Below, in pieces: positions 6,577-16,055 of a stretch of 19,306 nucleotides of DNA (positions are counted from its first letter, which is position 1; every line of letters starts with the position of its first letter). Source of the stretch: Actinomycetota bacterium (lineage in GTDB: Bacteria > Actinomycetota > Acidimicrobiia > Actinomarinales > Actinomarinaceae); assembly GCA_002724835.1 (NCBI GenBank), contig PBPX01000019.1:21962-41267 (forward strand). The letters run 5' to 3'. Both the position numbers and the translations under genes were made by a program. Under the pieces are notes generated by a model. That model searched no databases. It saw nothing but the letters and a program-made list of their open reading frames with translations, and was not told where the DNA came from.

Positions 6577-7092
6577 TTACAGATTATGAATAACATTTGT
6601 GACAACACCCCAAATATATCCTTCACTTTCTTTCTCTACAGTGATAGGTTTGTATTTTGGATTTTCAGGCTCTAACACTATTTTTTTACCATTAGTTTTA
6701 TATCGTTTGACCGTTAATTCATTATCCATAACTGCAATTACAACTTTTCCATTCTCAGCTTTTAAGCTTCTGTCAACAATTAAGATATCATCTGGAAAAA
6801 TTCCAGCATTAATCATGGAATCACCAGATGCTCGTACTAAAAAAGTAGAGGAAGGATGTTTAACAAGATATCTATTCAGATCAATTTTATCTTCTAAATA
6901 ATCATCTGCAGGGGATGGGAATCCAGCGGCCACTTTATTTCCATATAGTGGAACTTCATGCAGTCCTTTATTAACGACCTTAGATACATAATCGACTTTG
7001 CTAATAGGTATGCGAATAGCTTTAGTAGCTTCACCATACTTACCTTGCCCTTTTGGCCTACCGGCTCCCTTGCGAGCTCCACCTCTTGTCAT
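6577..7092 (-). CDS. umuD: UmuD-like self-cleaving protein (S24/LexA peptidase fold)
   Basis: Accessory subunit of a translesion polymerase and RecA-stimulated self-cleaving peptidase. It has 171 residues against about 139 in E. coli UmuD; the extra length is N-terminal. That extension starts MTRGGARKGAGRPKGQGKYG, a basic Gly/Arg/Pro/Lys stretch resembling an AT-hook (GRPKG), and occurs in some UmuD homologues. The predicted cleavage bond is Ala56-Gly57 in KVAAGFPSPADDY. The catalytic dyad is Ser92 (SGDSM) and Lys129 (ELTVKRY), separated by 37 residues exactly as in E. coli UmuD (60 and 97). The C-terminus ends EGYIWGVVTNVIHNL, as in the family. It diverges from umuC across 56 bases containing a near-palindrome, rather than preceding umuC in one operon, and is followed by the dehalogenase gene. 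Confidence 0.93.
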   Translation of the reverse strand: MTRGGARKGAGRPKGQGKYGEATKAIRIPISKVDYVSKVVNKGLHEVPLYGNKVAAGFPSPADDYLEDKIDLNRYLVKHPSSTFLVRASGDSMINAGIFPDDILIVDRSLKAENGKVVIAVMDNELTVKRYKTNGKKIVLEPENPKYKPITVEKESEGYIWGVVTNVIHNL

Positions 7093-7114
7093 AAATAATG
7101 TCTTTCTTTTTCTT

Positions 7115-7120
7115 TAGAAT
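7115..7120 (+). promoter_or_regulatory. Candidate -10 of umuC
   Basis: TAGAAT matches TATAAT at five of six positions and would start transcription about 22 bases before the umuC ATG, leaving room for the ribosome site. It overlaps the left edge of the dyad at 7117-7134. No convincing -35 is seen. Confidence 0.4.
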
Positions 7121-7134
7121 AGTGTACAGTATTC
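7117..7134. promoter_or_regulatory. 18-base near-palindrome: candidate SOS/UmuD operator
   Basis: GAATAGTGTACAGTATTC is a dyad with arms GAATA/TATTC around a TGTACA core and only one mismatched pair (G opposite G). Allowing a one-base bulge it extends to CTTT ... AAAG (7112-7138). It sits between the divergent umuD and umuC genes, over the presumed umuC start region, so a bound repressor would block one or both promoters. It fits neither the common actinobacterial LexA site (GAAC-N4-GTTC) nor the full E. coli CTG-N10-CAG site. Which repressor binds it (LexA, or the UmuD product) is inference. Confidence 0.6.
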
Positions 7135-7141
7135 AAAGGAG
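7135..7141 (+). promoter_or_regulatory. Strong Shine-Dalgarno sequence of umuC
   Basis: AAAGGAG lies 7 bases before the umuC ATG. It is the only full-strength ribosome site noticed in the window; most other starts have none. This supports the start at 7149 and a leadered umuC transcript. Confidence 0.8.
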
Positions 7142-7148
7142 TAAGTGA

Positions 7149-8414
7149 ATGAATAATAAAATATTTGCCTTAGTTGACTGTAATAACTTTTATGCATCTT
7201 GTGAAAGAGTATTTAACCCAGCGCTAGAGGGGAAACCAATTGTTGTTCTATCCAATAATGATGGTTGCATTGTTGCACGATCTAATGAAGCAAAAGCACT
7301 AGGGATTCCGATGGGAGCCCCTTTTTTTAAGTATGAACACTTAATGAAGAGAAATAACGTATATGTATTTTCTTCGAACTATACATTTTATGGAGATATG
7401 TCAGCAAGAGTCATGACATCTCTGCGCTCAATAGTTGGTGAAATAGAAGTTTACTCAATAGATGAAGCATTCCTTGATATTACTGACTTTTATTATTGCG
7501 ATTTAACAGAGACCGCAAAAGAAATAAGGAGACTAGTTAAGCAGTGGACAGGTATTCCAATATCGATTGGCATAGGACCAACAAAAACATTAGCAAAAGT
7601 GGCTAATAGGCAAGCAAAAAAATATGAATCATCCAATGTTTTTGATATTAGAGGTGAGTCTGAGAGAGTTGAAGTTTTAAAAGATTTAGAATTAGAAGAT
7701 ATTTGGGGAATTTCCACAAGATGGGGTAGGAGGTTAAGAAAGATTGGGATTGAAAATGCTTATGACCTATCTACAGGCAACCCAAGGCAGATACGTAAAG
7801 CTTTAAGCATTGTTGGAGAGAGGATTCATTATGAACTTAATGGAAAGTCTTGTATCCAGGTAGAAGAAGTAAAAAATAAAAAGAATATTATTTCATCAAA
7901 ATCTTTCGGAAAGAAAGTAACTAAGGTTCAAGAACTAGAGGAAGCTGTTTCTATGTATACAGCTAGAGCTTGTGAAAAATTAAGAGAACAGGGATCAAGA
8001 GCTCAGGGTATCTATGTATTCTTAAGAACGAGTCCTTATCTTGAAGAAGAGAATAAATACAGCAATGGTATGTCTTCATACTTCGATATTCCAACTAGTA
8101 ATACCTCGAACATTATTAAAGAAGCCAAGCTTTTAACAAATAAGCTATTTATTTCAGGTTATGAATATCAGAAAATAGGAGTGATGCTACTCAATATTGC
8201 AGATGCTAAAAATGAACAGTATAGTTTTTATAAATTTGAAGATTATAAAAAATCAGATACAGTGATGGATTCTTTAGATAGTATTAATGGAAAGTTTGGG
8301 ACAGGGAGCCTCTTTCTTGGGGCACAAGGAATTCATAAAAATTGGAAAATGAGAGCAGATAGAAAGTCAGCATCATATACAACTAAAGTAGATAACCTAC
8401 CAAGAGTTACTTAG
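7149..8414 (+). CDS. umuC: UmuC, Y-family translesion DNA polymerase V catalytic subunit
   Basis: Error-prone polymerase that copies past DNA lesions together with cleaved UmuD. At 421 residues it has the full family length. The start [19 protein letters not shown] gives the metal ligand Asp10, and [11 protein letters not shown] gives Asp105/Glu106, matching E. coli Asp6, Asp101 and Glu102. [20 protein letters not shown] is the thumb/HhH entry. The C-terminal little-finger part is followed by [21 protein letters not shown] and a closing LPRVT, typical of UmuC rather than DinB. The ATG has a strong ribosome site. Expression is probably damage-regulated through the dyad upstream. Its stop abuts the stop of the convergent MFS gene with no spacer. 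Confidence 0.96.
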
Positions 8415-10867: not shown

Positions 10868-11632
10868 TTATTTTATCTTTTTTATTAACTGTTCAACACT
10901 TCTCTGGTCGATTCTTTTTGACACATCATGGTCTACCTTAAAACTCGTACCTATTATCAAAATATCTGCTAAATCAACGTATTGTTCTATGTTTTCTTCA
11001 TTAACTCCTGAACCAATAGCTAGTTTTCCTTGAGGTACTATATCTCTAACTTTATTTAAATCTTCAATATTTATTTCATGCCCAGTGCCATCACCAGTGA
11101 CGATTACAACATCTGCACCAGCTCTATGTATTAGTTCTTCAGTATGATTTTCAATTTTTGAACCTTCTGGTGGTACAGCATGCTTTACAAATACATCTGC
11201 ATATATTTCAATTTCTTTATTTAACGAATTTTTAAATTGTGCAATTTCATGAGCTTTTCCTTCAATCATTCCTTGATCTGTGTACATCATTACATTATTT
11301 AATACATTAATTCTTACAAAATCTGCTTTAGTTGCTTCAGCTATAGATAATGCTGCTATTCCGTCATTCCTTAGAACATTTATTCCAACTTTTATATCTC
11401 GATCGTATTCAAGGTTTTCAACTACAGTTGTAAAACTTGCTAGCGTTCTTTTAGAAATATCATCCTTTACAAATGGAGTGTCACCAAAATTTTCAATAAT
11501 AATTCCATCAATACCACCAAATATTAAATTATTAACATCTTCTTGAGCAGATTCAATTATCTCATCTAATGATAAATAATTACCAGAAGATCCTGGCAGC
11601 GGTTTTAAATGAACAACTCCGTATACAATCAT
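10868..11632 (-). CDS. BtpA/SgcQ-family TIM-barrel protein
   Basis: A 254-residue protein with the family start YGVVHLKPLPGSSGNYLS and then GIDGIIIENFGDTPFVKDD (about 40-58), both hallmarks of the BtpA/SgcQ family. Later blocks are KADFVRINVL, AGADVVIVTGDGTG and LAIGSGVNEENIEQY, consistent with a phosphate-binding TIM barrel. Cyanobacterial BtpA is linked to photosystem I stability, and SgcQ lies in a sugar operon. Neither role transfers here, since no photosystem or sugar-PTS gene is nearby, so the function is open. The gene sits 3 bases after the TIGR03084-family stop and 4 bases before the PPC gene, so the three are presumably co-translated. Confidence 0.87.
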   Translation of the reverse strand: MIVYGVVHLKPLPGSSGNYLSLDEIIESAQEDVNNLIFGGIDGIIIENFGDTPFVKDDISKRTLASFTTVVENLEYDRDIKVGINVLRNDGIAALSIAEATKADFVRINVLNNVMMYTDQGMIEGKAHEIAQFKNSLNKEIEIYADVFVKHAVPPEGSKIENHTEELIHRAGADVVIVTGDGTGHEINIEDLNKVRDIVPQGKLAIGSGVNEENIEQYVDLADILIIGTSFKVDHDVSKRIDQRSVEQLIKKIK

Positions 11633-11635
11633 TAT

Positions 11636-12373
11636 TTATATTTTTACGTGATTAAAGTTAATAAACTTTTTAGCAAAGTCGCCTTCAGCTGAAAGTGTTG
11701 GTTTGAAGCCTTTATCAGTTCTTCCTGTAATTATTCGACACCAATCACTTGCATTTCCTTTTACACTATTTTCTGATTTTTCATTACCAAATTGCCAAGC
11801 TTTATATTCAGGTCCAATTAATTCAACTCTTAAATCTTGAAATTTAGTTTTATTTTCTTTACTTACATTTTCTGCATTTAGCCAACCATATAAAGCAACA
11901 TGTTCAATTCTTATTGTGTCTTCATAATCTTTCTTCATAGAAGCGTAGATATCAAGACCATGTGCCCATGTTTCTGCTAATTTAGATGAGGCAAATGTTA
12001 GGTAATCTATTTCTTTATGCCACCAGTTGATTTTTCTTCCTGGTGTTGCATCAGCTAACGTTTCAACCACTTTTGCTCTTGAAAGTCTCCACCATTCAAT
12101 TACATCTTGTGGTCTCATATCTTTACCTTTTTCAAGGCAACTGTTTTCAAATTTTTCTAGCCCTTTTGGCCCTTTGTAAATAGAAAAGTCAGTACCTTTT
12201 TTCTTCAATGCATTGAACGCTAAATCTTCTAATCCAGCAAGATAACTAACATGATTAGTAATTGTCCAATTTTTAAAACTTGTTTTAGTACCCCAATTAC
12301 GAACTGGAATACTTTGTAAATATTGATCTAGTAATTGTTGTTCCGCTACTAGATTACTTAGAATTTCTTTCAC
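11636..12373 (-). CDS. TIGR03084-family metal-binding protein (mycothiol-dependent isomerase-like, DinB fold)
   Basis: A 245-residue protein of the MDMPI/DinB-like superfamily. The N-terminal four-helix part carries WTITNHVSYLAGLED (His41) and KLAETWAHGLDIY (Glu134, His138), a His/Glu/His set matching the metal ligands of mycothiol-dependent maleylpyruvate isomerase. The C-terminal part (about 165-245) contains LRVELIGPEYKAWQFG and GNASDWCRIITGR, typical of TIGR03084. The family is mostly actinobacterial; substrate unknown. The start is GTG (12371-12373), because no ATG is available near the conserved N-terminus. It heads the minus-strand operon with the BtpA- and PPC-family genes. A short TTGTGAAACAA inverted repeat lies 14 bases upstream, of uncertain meaning. 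Confidence 0.85.
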   Translation of the reverse strand: MKEILSNLVAEQQLLDQYLQSIPVRNWGTKTSFKNWTITNHVSYLAGLEDLAFNALKKKGTDFSIYKGPKGLEKFENSCLEKGKDMRPQDVIEWWRLSRAKVVETLADATPGRKINWWHKEIDYLTFASSKLAETWAHGLDIYASMKKDYEDTIRIEHVALYGWLNAENVSKENKTKFQDLRVELIGPEYKAWQFGNEKSENSVKGNASDWCRIITGRTDKGFKPTLSAEGDFAKKFINFNHVKI

Positions 12374-12677: not shown

Positions 12678-13127
12678 ATTTGGCGTTTACTAGGTAAATC
12701 ATTTCATATTTGGCCAACTTGGTTAATTAAGTTTGTAACTTTTATTCACACAAAATTAATAAAATTCAATCATACAAAAATAGGTACGTTGATCTTAGGT
12801 GGAAATATTTTATTGTTAGAAACAAAAGGGAGACAAACTAGGAAAATAAGAAAAGTACCACTTACTTATGCAGAGATTGATAACGGATTCCTAGTAGCTG
12901 CTTCCTATGGTGGAAGAGATAAAACACCGAATTGGTTTTACAATTTAGAAAATAGTAATACATTCGTTACTGTAGATAAAGATAGGTTAAAAGTAAGACA
13001 TGAAATTGTACAAGATAATGAATTAGAGTACTTCTGGAATAAATTAATTGATATATACCCAACATTTAATATTTACAAACAAAGAACTAGCCGAAAGATT
13101 CCACTAGTAAAACTGCTTAAAGTTTAG
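12678..13127 (+). CDS. Ddn-like deazaflavin (F420)-dependent nitroreductase family protein, possible ATT start
   Basis: The conserved core NILLLETKGRQTRKIRKVPL followed by GFLVAASYGGRDKTPNWFYNLENS identifies the Ddn/Rv3547 family of F420H2-dependent split-barrel reductases. RKIPLVKLLKV is the usual C-terminus. The coding frame is open from just after the TAA at 12666-12668, yet it contains no ATG or GTG and its only TTG is at 12789, which would leave 112 residues and remove the N-terminal helix. An ATT at 12678 lies 6 bases after AAGGA (12667-12671) and gives 149 residues, the normal size (M. tuberculosis Ddn has 151). I therefore mark the ATT, as in infC. Alternatives are the TTG, read-through fusion with the preceding gene in the same frame, or a damaged start. 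The last 11 bases overlap the convergent AAA+ gene. Confidence 0.72.
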   Translation: MWRLLGKSFHIWPTWLIKFVTFIHTKLIKFNHTKIGTLILGGNILLLETKGRQTRKIRKVPLTYAEIDNGFLVAASYGGRDKTPNWFYNLENSNTFVTVDKDRLKVRHEIVQDNELEYFWNKLIDIYPTFNIYKQRTSRKIPLVKLLKV

Positions 13128-14103
13128 GTTTTAAGCTAGGACCAGATCTAACTACTGTATTCCACAATGTATTGTAGTGATCTATGTCATCAGCATCTAC
13201 GTGGGGTAGTACAAAGTTTTTCCATGCTTCAAACAAAGGATCAGATGAATTTTTATATATATCTAAACCTACTGGTATTCTTTCAACTATTGTTCTTAAA
13301 CTCATAGGAGTTTCTATATTGATACTTATATCATCAGACATAAATGAATTATTAATTTCAATAGCAAGTTTGATTATTAAATCACTGAATTCTGATTGTA
13401 AGTTCGGATATCTTTTTTTAAATATTAATTGTAGTTGATCTTTATCAGGAAATGGTTTATCCCATATAACCCATCTATCGGCAAATGCTTTATTTAAAGT
13501 TTGTGTACCTGAGTAGTCTCTTAAGCTAGTTGGATTCATTGTGCCGAAAATATAACAGTCGTCTCTTAGTGATATTACCTCGCCGTGTGGTAGTTCTAGT
13601 TTTTTATGTCTATCAAGTAAAGAATGCAAGGCAAACAATACTTCAGGTCCTGCTGCATTTAATTCAGACAAATTAACAATTGCAGGACCCCTCAAAGCTC
13701 TTGTTAGCTCACCATCTTGCCATTTACTTTCTGTTCCACCTTTACCATCACCGTATAGTTGAACTGAACCAAGCAATGTAACGTCTCTAACTTCGCCAGA
13801 TAATGGAATCCTGTAATAGGGATATTTTAATTTAGCTGCAAATTGTTCTATATCATGATCTTTTCCTGTTCCCATATGGCCTTTTAATGCAACATGGATA
13901 GGAATTTCATTTTTAAAAGATATGTTTTTTGAATTTATTAATTGCGCTAATTTGAATTGAATGCCAAGATCTACATAGTTTTTATCTACATTAGGAATTC
14001 TTTCAGCCCTTCCTTCGTAGTCTTCAATTGATTTAGATAGTTTGCATTCATCTAGTTCAACTGTTTCGTTATTTATAGGATTTGTAAATTCTTTTTTTAC
14101 CAT
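13117..14103 (-). CDS. CobS-like MoxR-type AAA+ ATPase with altered Walker A and B residues
   Basis: A 328-residue AAA+ ATPase of the CobS/MoxR kind (AAA_5), expected to form a ring that acts on a vWA partner. Landmarks are Walker A GHMGTGKD (75-82), then IEQFAAKL as in CobS, DVTLLGSVQLYGDG (107-120) and Walker B region AIVNLSELNAAGPEVLF (141-157). Sensor 1 is FGTMNP (Asn190), KAFADRW (Arg210) is an arginine-finger candidate, and SLRTIVERI (268-276) is the sensor 2 region. Two Mg-site side chains differ from the norm: Walker A has Asp82 instead of Ser/Thr, and Walker B has Ser146 instead of Asp, with catalytic Glu147 kept. Its ATG shares one base with the stop of the vWA gene (TAATG). No cobalamin genes are nearby, so cobalt chelation is not implied. 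Confidence 0.88.
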   Translation of the reverse strand: MVKKEFTNPINNETVELDECKLSKSIEDYEGRAERIPNVDKNYVDLGIQFKLAQLINSKNISFKNEIPIHVALKGHMGTGKDHDIEQFAAKLKYPYYRIPLSGEVRDVTLLGSVQLYGDGKGGTESKWQDGELTRALRGPAIVNLSELNAAGPEVLFALHSLLDRHKKLELPHGEVISLRDDCYIFGTMNPTSLRDYSGTQTLNKAFADRWVIWDKPFPDKDQLQLIFKKRYPNLQSEFSDLIIKLAIEINNSFMSDDISINIETPMSLRTIVERIPVGLDIYKNSSDPLFEAWKNFVLPHVDADDIDHYNTLWNTVVRSGPSLKPKL

Positions 14104-16055
14104 TACGCAGCACCAATATTTTCTTTCATGTTCTTAATAAGTATATCTTTTGTGATGTTTACAATCGAATATATTAACTCTTCTGGTTTAAATATTTGTG
14201 TGTGATTTATATATTCTTTCCATGTACCTCTTTCTCCAATTCCAATTCCAACAACATCGATATTATTTTTAGTTGCATAGTTAATAGAATTTTTTAAATC
14301 ATTCAAAGAACCCCTTGTCATTCCATCTGAAAGTACAACAAGCATTTTTGAGTTAGAGGGATGAGTTAGTAGTCTTTTAGTAGCATACATAATATTTCTT
14401 TCATCAACGTTTGTACTTCTTTCAAACATGCTGATTGGAGGTATATCATTTTTAATATCTATATTATCTATCGAATCTCTTAACTTTCTTGAGAAATCAA
14501 CCAGACCAATAAATTTTTCATAGTTATCTTTCCAGTTGTCTTTAAAATCTTTAACAAAGTAATGATTCGTAGTATTGAAATAGTTTTCGGCATTTGAACC
14601 ATAATTTGTATTTAGCATTGAAGATACAGACATTTTTCTAGACAGATAGTTTGTTTCAGTCTCATTTTCATCTGAAACGAAGCCTCTATTAAAAATTGCT
14701 AATTCAAAGTCAATATTTAATTCATGACAAATTTGTGCTAAATAACTAGCTCCAATTAAACCAGCAGACAATGACCAGGGATAAAAATCACCTTTCTTTT
14801 TTTCTAACATGGAACCGCTTCCGTCAATAAGAAGTGAAACAGCATATGATTTATTTGATAATCTTTGTTTCTGCTCAAACATTCTTTCGTATCTTCCTGA
14901 AGCTAACATAAGTGGAACATGTGGAGAAAGATCTCCTTGATCATATCCACTTATTCTTTGTCTTTTTTGATTATGAATAAAATAAGGTTTAATTTTATTT
15001 GTTACTTTAAATACTGGTAAGTTCCACTCTTCTAAAAGATTATTATAAGTTAAAGAACCTGAGCTATATAGGGAATCAAAATTATTAGGTAATTTAGTAG
15101 ACACTAGTTTAGAAACTTTGCCATCAGGAAGATAAATTGTTTCGGAAGCACCAACTTTAGTAATATGATCATCCATTAGATTTTCCTTATTGTTATCCTT
15201 CTTTCCATCTTTATCACCAATAAATTTTTCTAAAGCATTTCCTGTGGTTATATTCACGGAAGAGGGGATAAGTGTTTTGTTTAGATCATTAATGATTGTA
15301 TCTTCCATAGATTCTACAATTTCTCTTTTTTCACCTAAAGAATATTTATCAAGATCAGGTAATAGGTTGTATCTTTTGCAAATATCGATTATTTCTATAG
15401 TACTTTCTATAACATCATTAATAAATATATCTTCAGAGTTTAAATTGTTAACTATAGGCAGTGACTCATCTAGAGCTTTTTTAATATTCGACTTATACTT
15501 AGACAAATCAATCTCTATATAGTTTGTTATTTTATGAAAAAGCAATGTAAGGAATAAATTAAATTCCTTTAATGATATTATTTTGGATTCTTTTTCAAAA
15601 TAAATTTCTTTAAGTATGCTAAACAAACCATCAAATTTGTTAACAAAATTTTTCTCTTCAAGTGAGTGAATTATTATTTCAAAAACATATTGACCAAAAG
15701 GACCTGACAGTACTTCTAATACATCTTCAATGTCTTTTAATCCTTCTATTTCGTCATTAAAATTCTTAAAATCTATATCAGGATCAATTTTATATTCGTT
15801 TATTGAATGTATTGATTCATGAACTACAGTACCAATCAAAACATCTTTTTTATTTATATTTGAATTTTCTATTGAGTTAACAAGAATTGTTGGATTTATA
15901 GTTACTTCATTAGAATTTTCACTAGAAGATTTACCTAATCTTAAAATTAAATCCTTATTGTTGTTTTCTGACTGTAAGAGTCTTGTAATAGCAGGTTTTA
16001 TTTTTTCAAATTCTAAAATTACTTCAGACTCAATATTATTCTTTGTAGACTTCAT
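14103..16055 (-). CDS. CobT-like von Willebrand factor A protein with N-terminal HExxH motif
   Basis: A 650-residue protein upstream of, and coupled to, the AAA+ gene. Near the N-terminus GTVVHESIHSINEY carries HExxH (His79, Glu80, His83), a zincin-type metal site; acidic residues at 102-114 might supply a third ligand. The middle (about 135-370) is charged, helical and divergent. The C-terminal vWA domain (about 403-640) has MIDAS motif DGSGS (411-415), the stretch STNVDERNIMYATKRLL (547-563) equivalent to the CobT region around its NIDGE motif, and VVLSDGMTRGS (573-583), all CobT-like. The N-terminal part recalls the putative metallopeptidase-plus-vWA (DUF2201) proteins that pair with AAA+ ATPases; that link is inference. 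It diverges from dapB across 56 bases. Substrate and client are unknown. Confidence 0.85.
   Translation of the reverse strand: MKSTKNNIESEVILEFEKIKPAITRLLQSENNNKDLILRLGKSSSENSNEVTINPTILVNSIENSNINKKDVLIGTVVHESIHSINEYKIDPDIDFKNFNDEIEGLKDIEDVLEVLSGPFGQYVFEIIIHSLEEKNFVNKFDGLFSILKEIYFEKESKIISLKEFNLFLTLLFHKITNYIEIDLSKYKSNIKKALDESLPIVNNLNSEDIFINDVIESTIEIIDICKRYNLLPDLDKYSLGEKREIVESMEDTIINDLNKTLIPSSVNITTGNALEKFIGDKDGKKDNNKENLMDDHITKVGASETIYLPDGKVSKLVSTKLPNNFDSLYSSGSLTYNNLLEEWNLPVFKVTNKIKPYFIHNQKRQRISGYDQGDLSPHVPLMLASGRYERMFEQKQRLSNKSYAVSLLIDGSGSMLEKKKGDFYPWSLSAGLIGASYLAQICHELNIDFELAIFNRGFVSDENETETNYLSRKMSVSSMLNTNYGSNAENYFNTTNHYFVKDFKDNWKDNYEKFIGLVDFSRKLRDSIDNIDIKNDIPPISMFERSTNVDERNIMYATKRLLTHPSNSKMLVVLSDGMTRGSLNDLKNSINYATKNNIDVVGIGIGERGTWKEYINHTQIFKPEELIYSIVNITKDILIKNMKENIGAA

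Follow-up and report, generated by a model that had tools for sequence, protein, structure and literature searches.

We describe a family of CobS-like AAA+ proteins of the Acidimicrobiia in whose ATP site the Walker A Ser/Thr and the Walker B Asp appear to have swapped places: the residue after the P-loop Lys (the K+1 position) is Asp, the position of the Walker B Asp is occupied by Ser and the adjacent catalytic Glu is retained. The window, i.e., the whole stretch of 19,306 nucleotides of an Actinomycetota bacterium that was analysed, encodes one such protein together with a CobT-like vWA partner (Table 1). In the window protein, the P-loop runs G75-HMGTGK81-D82 and the Walker B segment AIVNLS146E147LN; the respective codons are GAT (D82), AAT (N144), TCT (S146) and GAA (E147), and the Pfam AAA_5 model (PF07728) matches with 58.7 bits against a gathering score of 22. 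The alignment with CobS is gapless across both motifs, with D82 opposite the K+1 Ser and S146 opposite the Walker B Asp of CobS. Thus, the codons and this alignment confirm the reading of the earlier note, made from the letters of the window alone, which had placed Asp82 at K+1 and Ser146 at the Walker B Asp with Glu147 kept.

Table 1. Coordinates in the window of the AAA+ gene, its vWA partner and their motifs.
Feature	Position	Strand	Remarks
CobS-like AAA+ (AAA_5/MoxR-type) ATPase with exchanged Walker residues	13117..14103	minus	328 aa, ATG start
Walker A GHMGTGKD, residues 75-82	13858..13881	minus	D82 codon 13858-13860
Walker B strand AIVNLSE, residues 141-147	13663..13683	minus	N144 13672-13674, S146 13666-13668, E147 13663-13665
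CobT-like partner, N-terminal zincin-motif domain and C-terminal vWA	14103..16055	minus	650 aa
Partner HExxH (H79-E80-S-I-H83)	15807..15821	minus	invariant in 77/77 rows with letters, 84 rows in total
Partner MIDAS DxSxS (D411-S415)	14811..14825	minus	invariant in 84/84 rows

The exchanged residues are conserved far more strictly than chance would allow. D82, N144, S146 and E147 are invariant in all 117 aligned family ORFs, a collection that includes the window gene (L081), repeats (L116-L118 and L128) of L085-L087 and some overlap between its sources; in place of a Walker A GK[S/T] and a Walker B [D/E]E, every one of them reads GKD and SE. Equally invariant across the 117 are K81, the sensor 1 residue N190, the Arg-finger candidate R210 (aligned with the DRW of CobS) and the sensor-2 candidate R270, in agreement with the earlier claim that sensor 1 and the Arg finger stay conserved. 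To these we can add three features beyond that note: N144, the likewise invariant H83 and D84 that directly follow D82 (117/117), and the invariant HExxH of the partner protein. At the DNA level, D82 is encoded by GAC in 59 and GAT in 58 of the family ORFs, and S146 by TCC (53), TCA (27), TCG (20), TCT (16) and AGC (1); as codon choice varies at both sites, the residues have been held while the DNA drifted, and the AAA family is evidently under selection.

As a comparison, we used 40 other AAA_5 ORFs, which were picked for their likeness to the query rather than at random and include a few repeats (L114/L088, L115/L089, L119/L090 and L120/L091). D82 or S146 occurs in none of them: position 82 is Thr in 29, Ser in 10 and Asn in one, whereas position 146 is Asp in 26, Glu in 11 and Asn in three. 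Position 144 is more variable (Tyr 21, Leu 9, His 4, Val 3, Asn 2, Ile 1), both instances of Asn (L103 and L110) stemming from an alignment insertion in that stretch. Judged from these alignments, N144 of the Walker B strand is a putative third coupled change beside D82 and S146. None of the 40 represents an evolutionary intermediate carrying D82 or S146 alone; the single-position variants, namely Asn82 in L157, Asn146 in L082, L083 and L156, and the 11 cases of Glu146, occur separately from each other. A second AAA_5 protein of the genome G000 (L082 and L083) supplies one of these variants, with Asn for the Walker B Asp (LVLNEID) and an ordinary GKT P-loop; its two loci, at G000:C30:5054-5413 and 48913-49272, give identical alignments and are perhaps an assembly duplicate. 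The earlier note had proposed tabulating residues 82 and 146 across homologues: paired Asp/Ser is found in 117 of 117, and close homologues with an ordinary GK[S/T] and DE were not seen in the searches made.

In phylogenetic terms, the family forms one clade (support 0.947), which neighbours CobS and the L088/L089 proteins, the latter with GHTGVGKT and EE, in a single FastTree tree of 52 sequences; this was built after masking sites 82, 144 and 146, discarding duplicate rows and those with over 70 gaps and thinning the family at 88% identity, and is rooted for display on L101. In these near AAA relatives (L088/L114 and L089/L115), the AAA gene and a vWA gene (LLVDASYSMLQ) converge tail to tail instead of sharing one orientation. 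Since all Asp/Ser members found fall in a single clade with no intermediate, the double change belongs to one stem branch: it is one joint event and is not countable as repeated co-variation. Hence, of the co-variation advanced in the earlier note, the conservation of Asp and Ser as a pair stands, and the exchange itself is accounted for by one joint change.

The AAA gene was recovered by profile (E <= 1e-40) in 165 of the 395 Acidimicrobiia genomes sampled, with one match in each; carriers account for 84 of 268 near-complete Acidimicrobiia genomes and 62 of 184 genera. All 165 carriers have D82. The exact degenerate P-loop pattern is present in 164 genomes, with zero in the control columns, and a comparison of the two lists by eye shows agreement except for G645, the sole carrier off the pattern, in which Arg replaces M77 and D82 and S146 are kept. 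For S146, the reading covers the 117 ORFs and also L177 and L178 rather than all 165 carriers. In a separate scan with one genome per species, 103 stretches matched a seed and 92 encode relatives, of which the best 80 were used; these and the window copy all have D82 and S146-E147, although the exact 8-residue seeds, one of them spanning K81-D82, favour query-like members. The titles of the relatives name Actinomarina/Actinomarinales and Acidimicrobiia, and some merely Actinobacteria, Actinomycetota, Acidobacteria or bacterium. The gene is absent from four genomes of the window's genus (66 to 79% complete), from 11 genomes in the sample that belong to other carrier families (G460, G469, G544, G548, G577, G579, G589, G597, G603, G613 and G643) and from many further Acidimicrobiia families of the 395-genome sample. 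Completeness among these 11 is 93 and 91% for G460 and G469, both from a single genus, and 56 to 88% for the other nine.

Exact seeds, phages, plasmids and viral contigs provide a weak sampling of what lies beyond Actinomycetota. No relative emerged from the seed scan of viral contigs, and three matches there to the pattern GHxGTGKDH were judged from the surrounding reading frames to be chance. With tblastn, 119 phage and 1675 plasmid records were matched, all at less than 60% identity. Eight of these records were read: six have GK[S/T] and DE, L156 has GKT and NE, and L157 has GKN and DE. The last of these, with its ordinary DE Walker B, is a phage-labelled fragment (MT839881.1). A mobile or phage origin was rejected on the absence of a viral-contig relative by seed and the identity of all phage and plasmid matches below 60%.

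The AAA gene is directly preceded by that of the vWA partner, the stop of which overlaps its start (TAATG). A vWA gene precedes the AAA gene on the same strand in 79 of the 80 scan loci; in the remaining one (L034), the contig stops inside the AAA gene. A partner ORF is likewise present in all 30 loci L121-L150, and across the 296 genomes of the phylum sample, the partner family and the close AAA family share the same four carriers. In the loci outside Actinomarinales (L035-L080 minus L077), the AAA protein is 55-62% identical to that of the window and the partner 26-31%, the fragment L058 excepted. At its C-terminus, the partner has a vWA domain in which D411, S413 and S415, as well as T495 and D577 as candidates for the remaining MIDAS set, are invariant in all 84 rows. 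The CobT vWA model PF11775 matches the window partner with 24.6 against a gathering score of 21; among other partners, L016 scores 25.1, L004 20.9 and L064 11.7, and L042 and L060 give no match. A profile comparison with the CobT of L151 covers most of the chain (E 1.5e-9), and the CobT equivalog TIGR01651 is matched by one of 25 partner members (E 0.085). The N-terminal domain is recognised by the CobT model PF06213 in 10 of 19 members, at best with E 0.00079, and weakly by an SprT-like zincin model in four of 19, at best with E 0.016; in the window partner, the SprT-like match covers the HExxH motif, and none of the zincin models among the matches listed reaches its cut-off. E134, a candidate third metal ligand, is invariant in 78 of 78 rows with letters (84 rows in total). 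An AF2 model of the partner, free of Mg and ATP (pLDDT 77.8, pTM 0.54), finds NorD as its first match, with the MIDAS domain of Midasin also listed and no zincin in the best 50 rows. HExxH is missing from the vWA neighbours of L088/L089. Since the motif is invariant in the partner and absent from the CobT of L151, the CobT N-terminal domain may, by this comparison, be a degenerate zincin.

In terms of affinities, the AAA protein is related to CobS, the relationship claimed in the earlier note and upheld here by the tree and by a profile comparison with the CobS of a Cereibacter plasmid (L151; E 5.6e-16, 32% identity), which is collinear from the N-terminal CobS block that precedes the AAA domain through the sensor-2 region. 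With CobS/CobT, the pair shares the pairing of AAA+ and vWA proteins and a collinear alignment of both, including their N-terminal parts; it differs in the exchanged Walker residues, in the HExxH of the partner, which the compared CobT lacks, and in the near-constant absence of CobN. The MoxR-type remodelling pairs NorQ/NorD and CbbQ/CbbO likewise combine an AAA_5 protein with a MIDAS-bearing vWA protein, but the N-terminus of the partner here is CobT-like, and a locus annotated as CbbQ/NirQ/NorQ (L152) keeps GKT and DE, unlike the present family. Several AAA domains of Midasin (Mdn1/Rea1) also align, with its LDELN opposite LSELN; Midasin, however, is one large eukaryotic chain and its best-aligned domains keep the Asp. 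Midasin, CobS, NorQ and CbbQ take the top ranks of a PDB sequence search, while the best fold matches of an AF2 model of the ATPase, made without Mg or ATP (pLDDT 78.3, pTM 0.78, residues 189-215 below 50), are NorQ and CbbQ at low TM-scores of 0.31-0.40 by query length.

In P-loop enzymes, the K+1 Ser/Thr is a ligand of Mg2+ and forms a hydrogen bond with the Walker B Asp. According to PMC9599734, these two residues are strictly conserved and are proposed to constitute a universal catalytic module, the exceptions including Glu for Asp and, in nucleotide monophosphate kinases, Gly for Ser/Thr; activity is stated to be lost when either of the two is replaced, with slow residual hydrolysis allowed in mutants. 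Asp at K+1 may itself be one of the exceptions covered there. Asp is found at K+1 in one solved P-loop kinase, the dNMP kinase of phage T4 (SGKD; PDB 1dek/1del), which shares this residue with our family and differs in being annotated as a kinase rather than an AAA+ protein: its phosphate acceptor is a nucleotide, and it has no need to deprotonate water. By analogy with this enzyme, an Asp at K+1 would be compatible with a working P-loop enzyme; since the exchange also keeps the same two partners, hydrolysis is likely.

We favour, with restrained confidence, an active MoxR/CobS-type remodelling ring that hydrolyses ATP at a rebuilt Mg site and acts with a vWA co-chaperone. In its favour are the invariance of the exchanged residues and of K81, E147, N190, R210 and R270, the variation of their codons at D82 and S146, the single match per carrier, the recurrent vWA partner, the NorQ, CbbQ and NorD fold matches and the K+1 Asp of the T4 kinase. 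Against it are the loss of activity that PMC9599734 states for replacement of either residue, the low TM-scores and the low-confidence stretch 189-215 of the AF2 model, the confinement of the change to a single clade and the 11 genomes of other carrier families in which the P-loop pattern is missing. That the ring is an active hydrolase with an exchanged module, in which the P-loop Asp is the Mg2+ ligand and the Walker B Ser its hydrogen-bond partner, we hold more tentatively, at a little under an even chance. Briefly, inferring Mg coordination, hydrolysis, ring assembly and any peptidase or metal-handling role, we advance the following mechanism. The pair would descend from a CobS/CobT-like pair and no longer act as a cobaltochelatase. 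D82 would most likely be a direct Mg2+ ligand, hydrogen-bonded by S146 and assisted by N144 from the same strand as S146; the two motifs would thus stay in contact, with the polarity of that contact inverted. Water would still be positioned by Glu147, the Arg finger and the sensors, and ATP would be hydrolysed. The ring might then drive its vWA partner to remodel a client, on the analogy of the coupling described for NorQ-NorD (PMC13036017 and PMC9976466). The MIDAS site could hold this client, or the zincin-like domain of the partner could handle it.

The main rival to this active ring, which we regard as unlikely, is a ring that binds Mg-ATP and hydrolyses it very slowly or never, having lost the Ser/Thr-Asp module and serving the zincin-vWA partner as a scaffold or clamp gated by nucleotide; the exchanged residues would then be selected for binding or assembly rather than catalysis. 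It draws on the model of PMC9599734, in which fast hydrolysis depends on the K+1 Ser/Thr and which accounts for the absence of this residue from nucleotide monophosphate kinases. Moreover, the sole K+1 Asp precedent found, the T4 enzyme, is a kinase and not a hydrolase, which counts against the active ring. Yet in pseudo-ATPase rings it is usually the catalytic Glu or the Arg finger that is lost, and here E147 and the Arg-finger and sensor residues are invariant in all 117 ORFs. Compatible with the active ring, and in our view possible if doubtful, is an ATP-dependent machine for metalloproteolysis or metal-site maturation, whose ring would feed an active zinc peptidase in the partner N-terminus. 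The invariance of HExxH and E134 in all rows with letters (77 and 78 of 84) and the SprT-like matches speak for such a peptidase; against it stand the sub-threshold scores of all zincin models listed, the match of the same domain to PF06213, a family whose member in L151 has no HExxH, and the want of a zincin in the fold matches.

The collinear alignment with CobS and its position in the tree would also suit an ordinary CobS of the aerobic cobaltochelatase, tolerating drift at two residues, but the exchanged residues are invariant rather than drifting. Further, the CobS equivalog TIGR01650 gives 64.9 bits against a cut-off of 558.55, and CobN (PF02514) was not found in the genome of the window (80% complete). 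CobN is present in 36 of the 395 Acidimicrobiia genomes, overlapping with the carriers in G398 alone when the lists are compared by eye; its absence from the other 164 of the 165 carriers (Fisher p 4e-8, uncorrected for relatedness) argues that the pair is not a cobaltochelatase. We thus consider an ordinary CobS very improbable, and a cobaltochelatase subunit was ruled out by the equivalog score and the absence of CobN. A sequence error, frame problem or decaying gene can practically be dismissed: no support for it was found, and the occurrence of D82 in 165 of 165 carriers, matches listed without internal stops and conserved synteny rule out sequencing error, frameshift and decay.

The way in which P-loop NTPases activate water is a matter of continuing dispute. 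A natural family with a swapped near-universal pair and the catalytic Glu kept offers a natural test of how ATP is split, and searches of the open-access literature for unusual Walker motifs brought up no report of a reciprocal exchange. If these rings hydrolyse ATP at normal rates, the universal-module model needs revision; if they do not, it would be naturally confirmed, these rings then being AAA+ proteins that retain the catalytic Glu yet do not hydrolyse. Were an exchanged-module hydrolase to be true, either the polarity of the module would be non-essential or a different proton path would operate. The partner is unusual in its own right, as a CobT-like vWA protein whose invariant N-terminal HExxH hints at the ancestral nature of the CobT domain.

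Finally, the gene neighbourhood was tallied in 79 loci, leaving out L034; several of these are too short to contain all neighbours. Downstream of the pair and on the same strand lie an MDMPI/DinB-like gene (34/34 Actinomarinales, 36/45 others), a BtpA gene (33/34 and 30/45) and a LOG/lysine-decarboxylase-like gene (0/34 and 41/45), the first two at 10868-12373 in the window. An M16 peptidase gene (0/34 Actinomarinales, 39/45 others) and dapB (34/34 and 22/45) are further neighbours. This conservation suggests vertical inheritance. PMC7159879 describes vWA-MoxR ternary conflict systems whose third component is VMAP, iSTAND, FtsH or a beta-propeller; the Pfam-named neighbours here are of other kinds. 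An anti-phage defence system was rejected, as PADLOC returned no family for either the AAA protein or its partner at E <= 0.01. Elsewhere in the window, at 6577-8414, a divergent gene pair resembles, judging from the ORF sequences, a LexA/UmuD-like peptidase and a UmuC/DinP-type polymerase.
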